Source: Hufsiella ginkgonis
GTDB lineage: Bacteria; Bacteroidota; Bacteroidia; Sphingobacteriales; Sphingobacteriaceae
DNA length: 64,000 nucleotides
Assembly (NCBI RefSeq): GCF_009834915.1
Contig: NZ_WVHS01000002.1
Location: 1,054,001-1,118,000 of the forward strand
Direction of reading: 5' to 3'
The notes beneath the pieces were generated by a model. It was not told where the DNA came from. It was given only the letters and a program-made list of their open reading frames with translations, and searched no databases. Positions 8,172-12,572 of the stretch are shown here, piece after piece. A program made the position numbers and the translations under genes. Numbering within the stretch: position 1 is the first letter of the stretch; every line of letters begins with the position of its first letter.

Positions 8172-10745
8172 TCAAAAAGAATAGTGTAAGGTTACGCCAA
8201 AAGTACGTTGATCCCCCAATACCCCTGCATAATGCCCGGCATTGCCGCCGGCCGGCAATAGTTGTTCGAAATAGTTCTTATCAAACAGGTTACGGCTCCA
8301 GATAAAAGCCGAGAGGCCCGAAGTCGCCCTGAAACCCGTCCTGGCGTTAACCAGCGTATAGCCATCGATATTCAAGTATTTTGACGGAGACGGGCTCGAA
8401 GAAAAATGCGACCGGAAAGATCCGTCGGCCGCGAAAAAGAATTTCGAGCCGTGGCTTACAAATTTAGCCGCAGCAGAGAATTCGCCTCCGAGCGATCCGG
8501 CCCATTTCGATACACCCGGGAGTACGCCGCCCGAGATATCTTTAAAGGCTATTTGTACATTGCTGCTGTTGGCAAGACCTGTTTCTTCCAGCGGAAGCGG
8601 TGCATTGGTAAAGCGAACATACTTGGCATCGGTATAGGCGCCGGCTCCAAAGAACGAGAAATGCTGCCCGCCCCTGATATTGGCATCCAGCTCCACCCCT
8701 TTTACATTTACCTTTTCGGCGTTGGCGATGTAACCGCGGTTAACGCCAAGTTCGGCCGACTGAACGTTTGTCTGGTAATTTTTAATATCAGAATTATGGA
8801 AGGTTACGTTGAAGGTGAGGTTATCTGCGGGCGTGGTTTTAACCCCAAGTTCATAATGTTTAGTGTCTTCGGGCTTGATAACCGCCAGGTCTGTCGCTGC
8901 AGCGCCATTAACGGTAGGGAGACCGGCGACGTTCACCCCAACAGGCTTGTAGCTGGTAGAATAGGTAGCAAACGCGTTGATACGGCCGGTGGGCTTGTAA
9001 GCCAGGGTAAGCTGGTAGGTAAAATTATTTTCATCCGCATCTGCAGCGTACGACTGGCTGCTATATACACCATTTTTTAAAGCGATTAAGGCGGCATCTG
9101 TAGTTTGGAGACCACCTTTCGCAACACGGTCGTATACGACGTCTTTTTTGTCGTAGTTGAAGCGCACACCGGGTAATACATGGAATCCCTCGAAGATCTG
9201 CCAGTCAAGATTAGCAAATACCGCCGCGCTTTTCGACTTGATAGAAGCCTCCGTATAAATTCCGTACCCCTCGAACAGGCCCGGTGTTTTCCATAAAGCG
9301 CTGGTCGAGCTTTGCGAAAAGCGCCATTGCGCGGAACCAGACTCTTCTGTACCATGGATTTTAACCTCCTGGTCGAAATAGAATACGCCGACAACGCCGC
9401 TAAGCCTGGACGACAACTCCCCGGCGTACCTCACTTCCTGCGACCAGCTCCTGTGCTCGGCCGGGTTCTGTGATTTTGCGAGTGCCTGGAGACCGGTAAA
9501 ATCCCTGTCGTTAGACGGGTCCCAGTTCCAATAGCGCCATGCCGTGGTAGAGGTGAGCGTACCGAACCCGATCTTTGAATCAACATTCAGTGAAACGCCG
9601 CCCAATTGGTTGCCTGACCTCCATGGGGTGTCGTGATCTATCTTGCGGTCGAAAGCATTCAGGCTTGGCAGCGTGTAATTAAGATCAGCAATGATGGCGT
9701 TAAACTGGCGGTATGCAGGTCGTAACGTAGTAACCACGCCTGCCACTACCTGGGCATAACCATCCGGTTTTTGATCTGATGCGTCGCCCGCGAGCGTGAT
9801 GGCCGTATTTTCAGATGGTTTGAACAGCAGCTGACCGCGAACGCCCAGGTTATTGATGTCATTGGTCGCTCTTCCCGTTCTTACATTCTCAACCAGGCCG
9901 TTACGCTGCGTCCCAGAAAAGGAAAGACGGCCGGCAAACTTCTTGCTTAACGGTCCTGTAACCGAAGCTTTGGCCTGGATATATCCATAATTGCCGAAGC
10001 TGGTCTCGAAATCGGCGTCGGGGATAAAACTAGCCTTCCTGGTGGTAATATTGATCGCACCTGCTGCGGTGTTTTTACCGAACAGGGTGCCTTGCGGACC
10101 ACGTAATACTTCAACGCGCTCTACATCGATAAAGTCGAAAGTGGCGGCGGCCGGTCGTGCGTAGTACACGCCGTCCACGTAAAATCCCACACCCGGGTCG
10201 AGACCGTCATTGGTAAGCCCGAACGGCGAGCCGATGCCCCTGACGTTGATACCCGTATTGCGGGGATTTGACGTATAAAGCTGGAGCGAGGGAACTACCT
10301 CTTTCAACCGGTTTACGTTGAACGCGCCCGACTGTTCTATCTGGGCGCCGCTTACCACCGAGATAGGAATTGGCACATCCTGCAGCACCTCCGCACGCCG
10401 CCTGGAGGTTACCACGATCTGGTCAAGCAGCGCATTTTCTACGAGCACTAATTCCAGCGGAGTATCCTGGAGCTTCAGCACCTGGAAGTCCTGGGGAGTA
10501 TAACCAACCGAGCTAACCCTGATGTAGAACGGCGGCTCTTGCCTTGCATTGATGCTGAAGGCGCCATTGTCATCTGCGCTTACGGAAACCGTGGTGCCTC
10601 TTATCGCCACCGTTGCGCGTGGTACCGCCTCCCCTTTGCCGTTCTTTATCACGCCGGTTAACGTGCCCTGGGCAAGCGCCGCCGTGTTTGGTAAGAGCAG
10701 AACGAATAAAGGCAAAAATTTTATTACGTAAAGTAAACGTTTCAT
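8172..10745 (-). CDS. TonB-dependent outer-membrane receptor (orphan, possible sulfur-compound or siderophore importer)
   Basis: An 857-aa receptor. It has a signal peptide (ends NTAALAQ), an N-terminal carboxypeptidase-regulatory-like domain (about residues 27-110), and a plug domain starting QDVPIPISVVSGAQIEQSG with RGIGSP and VERVEVLRGPQGTLFGKNT. A long beta-barrel follows, ending in aromatic residues (GVTLHYSF). It is not a SusC: there is no SusD partner, and the plug sequence LFGKNTAAGAINITTRK resembles the iron-complex/alphaproteobacterial receptor type. The leader contains a seven-cysteine upstream ORF, two hairpins and an inverted repeat (separate entries), suggesting control by cysteine or sulfur supply. 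The imported molecule is therefore guessed to be a sulfur compound. No transport or enzyme genes next to it help to narrow this. Confidence 0.88.
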   Translation of the reverse strand: MKRLLYVIKFLPLFVLLLPNTAALAQGTLTGVIKNGKGEAVPRATVAIRGTTVSVSADDNGAFSINARQEPPFYIRVSSVGYTPQDFQVLKLQDTPLELVLVENALLDQIVVTSRRRAEVLQDVPIPISVVSGAQIEQSGAFNVNRLKEVVPSLQLYTSNPRNTGINVRGIGSPFGLTNDGLDPGVGFYVDGVYYARPAAATFDFIDVERVEVLRGPQGTLFGKNTAAGAINITTRKASFIPDADFETSFGNYGYIQAKASVTGPLSKKFAGRLSFSGTQRNGLVENVRTGRATNDINNLGVRGQLLFKPSENTAITLAGDASDQKPDGYAQVVAGVVTTLRPAYRQFNAIIADLNYTLPSLNAFDRKIDHDTPWRSGNQLGGVSLNVDSKIGFGTLTSTTAWRYWNWDPSNDRDFTGLQALAKSQNPAEHRSWSQEVRYAGELSSRLSGVVGVFYFDQEVKIHGTEESGSAQWRFSQSSTSALWKTPGLFEGYGIYTEASIKSKSAAVFANLDWQIFEGFHVLPGVRFNYDKKDVVYDRVAKGGLQTTDAALIALKNGVYSSQSYAADADENNFTYQLTLAYKPTGRINAFATYSTSYKPVGVNVAGLPTVNGAAATDLAVIKPEDTKHYELGVKTTPADNLTFNVTFHNSDIKNYQTNVQSAELGVNRGYIANAEKVNVKGVELDANIRGGQHFSFFGAGAYTDAKYVRFTNAPLPLEETGLANSSNVQIAFKDISGGVLPGVSKWAGSLGGEFSAAAKFVSHGSKFFFAADGSFRSHFSSSPSPSKYLNIDGYTLVNARTGFRATSGLSAFIWSRNLFDKNYFEQLLPAGGNAGHYAGVLGDQRTFGVTLHYSF

Positions 10746-10811
10746 AATGTGAGTTGGATATAAAAAGTTGTGTTAAGGAATGATATGTTACCGGGAAATA
10801 AACGAAGCTGT

Positions 10812-10848
10812 CGGGAAACAGGTCCCGTTCAGTTGCAGGAGACGCAAC
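10812..10848 (-). promoter_or_regulatory. Pair of hairpins at the end of and just after the polycysteine leader ORF
   Basis: Two perfect 5-bp stems follow each other on the minus strand. The first pairs GTTGC with GCAAC (10844-10848 with 10832-10836) around a 7-base loop and includes the last cysteine codons of the leader ORF. The second pairs CGGGA with TCCCG (10823-10827 with 10812-10816) around a 6-base loop, just after the leader stop. A further TTCCCGG near 10790 could pair with the GGGA of stem two instead. Ribosome position on the leader could choose between these structures. Attenuation is inferred, not shown. Confidence 0.5.
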
Positions 10849-10891
10849 AACAGCAGCAACATGGAGATGAAGAATGAATGATCCGGTTCAT
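10829..10891 (-). CDS. Polycysteine upstream ORF (putative cysteine-responsive leader peptide)
   Basis: A 20-codon ORF runs from the ATG at 10889-10891 to TGA at 10829-10831. Its peptide ends SSSPCCCCCCVSCN. Six consecutive cysteine codons use a mixture of TGT and TGC (TGT TGC TGC TGT TGT TGC), and a seventh follows after Val-Ser. It sits about 80 bases upstream of the TonB receptor start, on the same strand and directly downstream of a TAGACTTTG/inverted-repeat region that may hold the promoter. If so, the mRNA would begin within a few bases of the ATG. Polycysteine leader ORFs that act as cysteine attenuators are known in mycobacteria. Here the role is inferred from composition, position and adjacent hairpins. 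A metal-sensing role for a Cys-rich leader is an alternative. Confidence 0.6.
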   Translation of the reverse strand: MNRIIHSSSPCCCCCCVSCN

Positions 10892-10901
10892 TAATTACAA
10901 A

Positions 10902-10920
10902 GTCTATAGGATTAATAGAC
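10902..10920. promoter_or_regulatory. Perfect inverted repeat GTCTAT-N7-ATAGAC upstream of the leader ORF
   Basis: GTCTAT (10902-10907) and ATAGAC (10915-10920) are perfect reverse complements separated by seven bases, a size typical of an operator for a dimeric helix-turn-helix regulator. The repeat overlaps the minus-strand TAGACTTTG that could serve as the -7 element and ends about 11 bases before the polycysteine ORF. I see no regulator gene nearby that obviously binds it. Confidence 0.5.
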
Positions 10921-11018
10921 AATTATACGGTGAGAGATCGGATGCTGCAAACTTTTTTTAAAAAAAGAAGAGTAAAAGGAGAAAGCGGGAACAGATTCTA
11001 TTCTCCATTCCCCATTTC

Positions 11019-12572
<1,554 letters not shown>

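Follow-up and report, generated by a model that had tools for sequence, protein, structure and literature searches.

The polycysteine ORFs of mycobacteria, which are leaderless, are reported to be cysteine-responsive attenuators (Canestrari et al. 2020, doi 10.1111/mmi.14498), and the initial annotation of the locus described here was right in naming them as known. Candidate leader peptides were also described for cys operons of Mycobacterium and Propionibacterium acnes and for cbs of Bifidobacterium longum (PMC1262725); these leaders have polyY motifs and no conserved terminator, and Rho-dependent termination as in tna was suggested. Within the Bacteroidota, attenuation by leader peptides was inferred before amino-acid operons of Flavobacterium psychrophilum (PMC9723704). 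A Bacteroidota counterpart of the polycysteine attenuators was not found in the open-access literature that we searched. Here, we describe such a candidate from Hufsiella ginkgonis, a short cysteine-rich ORF upstream of a TonB-dependent receptor. It is likely (probability about 0.78) that it encodes the leader peptide of a cysteine-responsive attenuator acting on a receptor of the sulfur regulon; translation, ribosome stalling, the direction of the response, the output via Rho or masking, the protein at the operator and the substrate of the receptor are inferred.

The leader ORF and its surroundings

Coordinates refer to the window, the whole stretch of 64,000 nucleotides that was analysed, and all features given lie on its minus strand. 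The leader ORF (10829..10891) has 20 codons, encodes MNRIIHSSSPCCCCCCVSCN and ends 83 nt before the ATG of the receptor. Six consecutive Cys codons (TGT TGC TGC TGT TGT TGC) occupy 10844..10861 and a seventh is found at 10837..10835; the earlier description of the ORF, six Cys codons in a row plus one in mixed TGT/TGC usage, therefore held, and the strand, which had not been given, is minus. The 20-residue peptide has no match in NCBIfam or Pfam. Runs of five Cys codons occur at only 7 distinct places (12 overlapping matches) of the 5.2 Mb genome, and only the focal one lies in a short ATG ORF whose distance from a convincing gene would suit a leader. Runs of four are more common (67 on both strands; the search gave 30 loci, of which 5 were examined). 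The focal Cys-run ORF is thus real and above chance.

The receptor itself (8172..10745; 857 aa) comprises a CarboxypepD-like domain, a plug and a barrel according to a domain search. It scores below every NCBIfam cut-off among the 25 families compared, and its relatives of solved structure are distant.

Upstream of the leader ORF lies a gene which we take, judging from its sequence and without a search, to be an IMP dehydrogenase. A terminator-like hairpin is predicted 3' of this gene (10987..11012) and is followed by a promoter-like site, made up of a -33 element TTTG (10948..10951) and a -7 element TATAATTG (10920..10927), and then by the leader ORF. TAnnTTTG is the promoter consensus of Bacteroidota; the focal -7 element, recognised by eye in comparison with the orthologues, is of this type with one mismatch. 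At the expected transcription start the palindrome GTCTATTAATCCTATAGAC (10902..10920) is a putative Rrf2-type operator; its core is enriched in the leaders of orthologues, and the binding protein is inferred. Since the terminator-like hairpin and the promoter-like pair both lie 5' of the ORF, the ORF is probably the first in the receptor's own transcript, a likely conclusion inferred from sequence and without transcript data. It is supported indirectly by other genomes: of 56 leaders (picked by their Cys/Met score and with enough sequence), 42 have TAnnTTTG in the 90 nt 5' of the uORF ATG, compared to 3.1 expected from mononucleotide shuffles, and the element is also present in 26 of the 36 leaders with a Cys cluster. 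In 23 of these 26 the nearest TAnnTTTG ends 16-45 nt before the uORF ATG, which predicts a short 5' UTR; the distance is only 4-8 nt in L045, L047 and L075. Support for transcription together with the receptor, whose absence would have refuted the initial annotation, does not go beyond this indirect evidence.

The gap between the uORF stop and the receptor ATG (10746..10828) is poor in G (C 0.29, G 0.11). The initial annotation had pointed to two hairpins before the receptor start. Both can be predicted, one over the last Cys codons and the end of the ORF (10832..10848) and one, CGGGA..TCCCG, after the stop codon (10812..10827). Both are weak and the whole focal leader folds no better than shuffled sequences (z -0.80; 40 of 200 shuffles at least as good), so a special role of these hairpins is not supported.

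Recurrence before orthologous receptors, metY and metX

Orthologues of the receptor were found in 14 of 60 genomes, the own genome included, in one search; a second search gave at least 562, the best 80 of which are the named loci used here. A Cys leader was defined as an ATG ORF of 8-60 aa within 330 nt upstream that has at least three Cys in six residues. This is met by 38 of 94 receptor leaders, the focal one included, compared to 10 of 631 other genes, none of 94 antisense sequences and 0.98 per 94 dinucleotide shuffles. The difference remains with at least four Cys in six residues (16/94 versus 2/631) and with at least five (8/94 versus 0/631). The 631 control genes are the other genes of the 80 named loci and are not matched in intergenic length, and many of the receptor loci come from Flavobacterium species and are hence not independent. 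Three duplicates (L041, L043 and L100) were removed from the distinct-leader, pN/pS and codon-pairing analyses, leaving 36 Cys-cluster leaders among 91 distinct ones; the last 200 nt of the leader are identical in L043 (Desertivirga xinjiangensis) and L019 (genome G006, same family as the focal genome). Another 22 of the 91 have two Cys among their last seven residues, mostly in the MCMC form of Flavobacterium, and 33 have neither form. No receptor call was obtained for L037 and L054.

The peptides are mostly unlike each other (median alignment score fraction 0.22 without Cys), with close relatives being alike, and the N-terminus shows no conservation. What is conserved before the orthologous receptor in many genera is the Cys cluster as a feature and not the peptide sequence. 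Lack of conservation of the Cys run had been named beforehand as a refuter, and the attenuator reading survives it. In 30 of the 36 Cys-cluster leaders the last Cys is 0-2 residues from the stop, a position at the end of the leader that is predicted by codon sensing near the stop codon. Cys is encoded by TGT 142 times and by TGC 56 times. In seven close pairs, six of them from Flavobacterium, the uORFs have a pN of 0.093 and a pS of 0.220; pN < pS speaks for translation of the leader ORFs, an inference from sequence without ribosome data.

These data also bear on the simplest objection, that the ORF arose by chance in DNA made of CAG/CAA triplet repeats. The 67 four-Cys runs of the own genome speak for this view, as does the fact that just one of seven five-Cys places is leader-like. 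However, Cys clusters recur at the same place in unlike sequences and above all three controls, and chance is thereby all but excluded. The worry over simple-sequence DNA (GCA/ACA triplets) raised by the initial annotation thus failed.

A search with the pattern TGYTGYTGYTGYTRA in 399 genomes of the family gave at least 30 loci and 5 sites in the own genome; 32 of these matches could be evaluated, those in L159, L167 and L174 not. Six matches are in ATG ORFs (L131, L160, L168, L172, L177 and L184), and three of these ORFs (L160, L168 and L177) precede metY or the receptor. Two of the other three have no gene of 100 codons within 450 nt and one precedes another gene. The remaining matches probably reflect chance. 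As a side observation, a uORF ending in STYCCC is found in L073 about 281 nt before position 11392, where the gene is taken from its sequence to be a SusC-like receptor.

The same kind of leader is found before metY, which encodes O-acetylhomoserine sulfhydrylase (TIGR01326) and was found in 21 of 46 genomes, although not in the own genome at the search threshold used. A Cys leader, again with at least three Cys in six residues, precedes 14 of these 21 genes; L195 and L200, whose starts were missed at first and then examined, have none. A SAM riboswitch lies upstream of metY in 17 of 19 loci scanned, and the two loci without it (L190 and L209) have the palindrome core. All 14 Cys leaders follow the SAM aptamer directly, with 7-11 nt to the ATG in 13 cases and 2 nt in one. 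It is conceivable, judging by this spacing in the metY leaders (L189-L208), that the aptamer gates translation of the leader.

The own genome has four SAM riboswitches. One is followed by the leader MKKETPRDFSIRTTSVMCCCMC, with MCCCMC before its stop codon, and then by metX, named by TIGR01392 on its first 120 residues. Another precedes a SusC-type receptor with a leader ending in MHCC, which is a weaker case. The remaining two, before a class-V gene and before a gene that we take from its sequence to be metH, have no Cys leader. The metX genes of relatives served as a held-out test with 25 loci, of which 10 have no gene within 150 nt upstream. Only two of these 10, L215 (own genome) and L216, have convincing leaders, and metX of relatives is mostly without a uORF, making this a weak test; L235 reaches three Cys in the absence of a SAM riboswitch and seems to be a chance case. 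In L219 (about 918-1490) a SAM riboswitch and a Cys leader are followed by an internally deleted metY-like gene, taken from its sequence to be a metY remnant, and then by metX.

The focal leader has no SAM riboswitch (RF00162). Riboswitches were rejected as a feature of receptor leaders, as none was found in the focal leader (one chance microRNA match) or in the 10 of 80 loci scanned. A cobalamin riboswitch match in L035 lies outside the receptor leader.

Palindrome and sulfur-related neighbours

Of the receptor leaders, 51 of 80 named and 10 of 14 unnamed contain the palindrome core CTAY-N7-RTAG, compared to 47 of 631 control genes; a longer form is seen in 42 of 80 named leaders compared to 25 of 631. 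These 25 control genes include CysD (L051 and L056), CysI (L070), siroheme synthase (L066) and an Rrf2 gene (L064), as named from their sequences and from cluster representatives; most of the others have no evident link to sulfur. The motif or its core is found in the own genome before cysH-cysD and the CysN-like gene after them, and also before two SAM riboswitches, whose downstream genes encode a SusC-type receptor and a protein of class-V aminotransferase fold. The number of palindromes in the own genome is not above that of the reversed-pattern control (7 versus 7; 15 versus 33 per strand), and of the seven sites two are inside genes and one precedes a response-regulator-like gene.

Within four genes of the receptor, 78 named loci have Rrf2 (23), TauE/SafE (21), CysI (5), CysN (5), CysD (4), CysH (4), CysJ (4) and YeiH-type genes (4); neighbours were counted by clusters, with one representative named per cluster. 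The own genome (G000) gave a single Rrf2 gene, preceded by a gene that we take from its sequence to be a siroheme synthase, and its product is 48% identical to the Rrf2 protein encoded next to the receptor in a Flavobacterium. This protein may bind the palindrome, but this is inferred and without binding data. Sulfur context comes independently from the palindrome that these leaders share, from the genes around the receptor and from the Cys leaders on metY and metX.

Three further observations were made. In 26 of 78 named loci, a DUF2490 gene is located downstream of the receptor and no more than three genes away, and its product is possibly part of the uptake system. In the own genome (L034, 1501-1751), two tandem tRNA-Cys genes are preceded by a TATATTTG box and by the palindrome, which differs from the search pattern at two positions. 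In L045, L051, L056, L060 and L085 a second copy of the palindrome lies between uORF and receptor, about -40 to -52 from the ATG; it has no clear promoter, and looping, a roadblock or an RNA hairpin are conceivable.

The uORF could also encode an independent small Cys-rich protein, for example a metal-binding one, under the same regulator, with the receptor having its own promoter, in some genomes at the second palindrome near -50. The second palindrome copies would fit, as would L089, in which a strong terminator separates uORF and receptor. On the other hand, the peptides are mostly unlike beyond the Cys cluster and have interspersed Met, metY behind SAM riboswitches has the same design, most second copies have no clear -7 element (by eye) and the focal leader has one copy of the palindrome. 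We therefore regard this explanation as unlikely. Still less probable is a nascent-chain sensor, in which the Cys-rich peptide senses metal or redox state within the ribosome. Cys runs can bind metals, and a nascent exported protein that senses copper has been reported (PMC9973294). However, the gene classes found point to sulfur, the N-terminus is not conserved, and the clusters end at the stop codon, so that their Cys residues would not yet have left the exit tunnel.

Output step, proposed mechanism and known systems

How the leader could act on the receptor was addressed by RNA folding in 62 leaders, selected by Cys/Met score and including weak cases and duplicates. Intrinsic terminators were predicted in 3 of 62, compared to 4 of 62 in antisense and 0.7 in shuffles, and none was found in the focal gap between uORF and receptor; attenuation by intrinsic terminators was therefore rejected as the general mechanism. 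In L089 a strong intrinsic terminator lies about 43-70 nt before the receptor ATG, after a leader ORF with CCCCC, which makes this locus a good model for classical attenuation. The gap is poor in G in 34 leaders (C 0.19, G 0.08) compared to 180 other 5' regions (C 0.18, G 0.17; p 9e-10), while C is not raised. In this test and in the codon-pairing test, L111 (Flavobacterium) was counted as non-Flavobacterium and L067 (a Flavobacteriales MAG) as Flavobacterium; the codon-pairing test omitted short runs and gaps.

A translational attenuator, in which the receptor start region is paired with the Cys codons until a stalled ribosome frees it, without any termination, is a competing output that we hold to be rather less probable than not. 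In 22 aligned Flavobacterium-type leaders (L069 and L100 excluded), UGUAUGUG pairs with CACAUAUA shortly before the ATG, with 89.1% of cells paired compared to 28-47% in slid controls. Pairing of the Cys/Met codons with this RNA is above shuffles (p 5e-7; 22 related sequences), and the focal Cys codons are predicted to be paired to 0.80, compared to 0.36 in shuffles. This may indicate masking of the start region in the Flavobacterium type, but support by covariation is missing: one pair changed on both sides, and 196 of 500 shuffles reach the score. Furthermore, the 3' arm is similar to another copy of the palindrome, and in leaders outside the Flavobacterium type (p 0.18) as well as on metY (p 0.46) the Cys codons pair with downstream RNA no more than they do in shuffles. 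Folding that conceals the Cys codons was thus rejected as a group feature outside the Flavobacterium type. Codon sensing is the likely principle, inferred from sequence; whether the output is by Rho or by masking remains unresolved.

In the cysteine-attenuator model that we favour, transcription would start about 25 nt before the leader ATG, and the operator would probably be bound by the only Rrf2-family regulator detected in the cell. With charged tRNA-Cys in plenty, the ribosome would pass the Cys run, terminate and leave, and the G-poor RNA behind it would let expression end before the receptor. The simplest stop would be Rho-dependent termination as in the tna operon of E. coli; the alternative would be RNA closing over the receptor start region. 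Under a shortage of cysteine, the ribosome would halt on the Cys run beside the stop codon and shield or reshape the following RNA, so that the receptor is made and may import a sulfur source. What the sequences show is the ORF and its recurrence, where the Cys codons lie, the conservation of promoter and palindrome, and the sulfur context. No expression, ribosome or cysteine-limitation data stand behind the model: the cysteine-attenuator reading of the initial annotation is supported, and response, transcription, translation and substrate are unproven.

It is tempting to go further and to assume a widespread Bacteroidota class of two-input sulfur leaders, each made up of a gate and a leader peptide whose Cys/Met codons read tRNA charging. 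The gate would be either an operator of the Rrf2 type or a SAM aptamer that ends 7-11 nt upstream of the leader's ATG, the latter possibly gating leader translation. This would tie metY and metX to outer-membrane import by a receptor family for an organic or esterified sulfur source; the case for this bolder reading is as strong as the case against it. In any event, the leader is a regulatory hint at what a widespread but uncharacterised family of TonB receptors takes up, it indicates that leader peptides with cysteine runs also exist outside the Actinobacteria, it points to a tandem control by SAM riboswitch and Cys/Met leader in Bacteroidota, and the Cys-tailed leader can be used as a sequence tag for more sulfur-regulon genes in the phylum.

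By sequence and recurrence, the locus fits the criterion for a leader-peptide attenuator, a short upstream ORF with clustered regulatory codons; its translation is supported only by pN < pS. The F. psychrophilum study (PMC9723704) is also on a member of the Bacteroidota, but its relevant section names neither a cysteine leader nor a TonB receptor with one. With the actinobacterial leaders of PMC1262725 the locus shares Cys-codon runs close to the stop, but those precede biosynthetic genes, whereas here a Bacteroidota receptor follows. The pattern seen here, with Cys codons right at the stop, few intrinsic terminators and a G-poor gap, recalls the Rho-dependent termination suggested there. An attenuator of the tna type would have regulatory codons next to the leader stop and C-rich, G-poor RNA after it; Cys near the stop and a G-poor gap are seen, C is not raised, and a role of Rho is only inferred. 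The SAM (S-box) riboswitch RF00162, absent from the focal leader, is found in front of leaders of this kind that precede metY, metX and a SusC-type receptor. Common to the mycobacterial system and the one described here are short upstream ORFs with consecutive Cys codons before a sulfur-related gene. The mycobacterial ORFs are leaderless, whereas in this different phylum a short 5' UTR is predicted in most cases; unlike in mycobacteria, the leaders precede a TonB receptor, metY or metX, often have interspersed Met, and often lie behind a SAM riboswitch or a palindromic operator.
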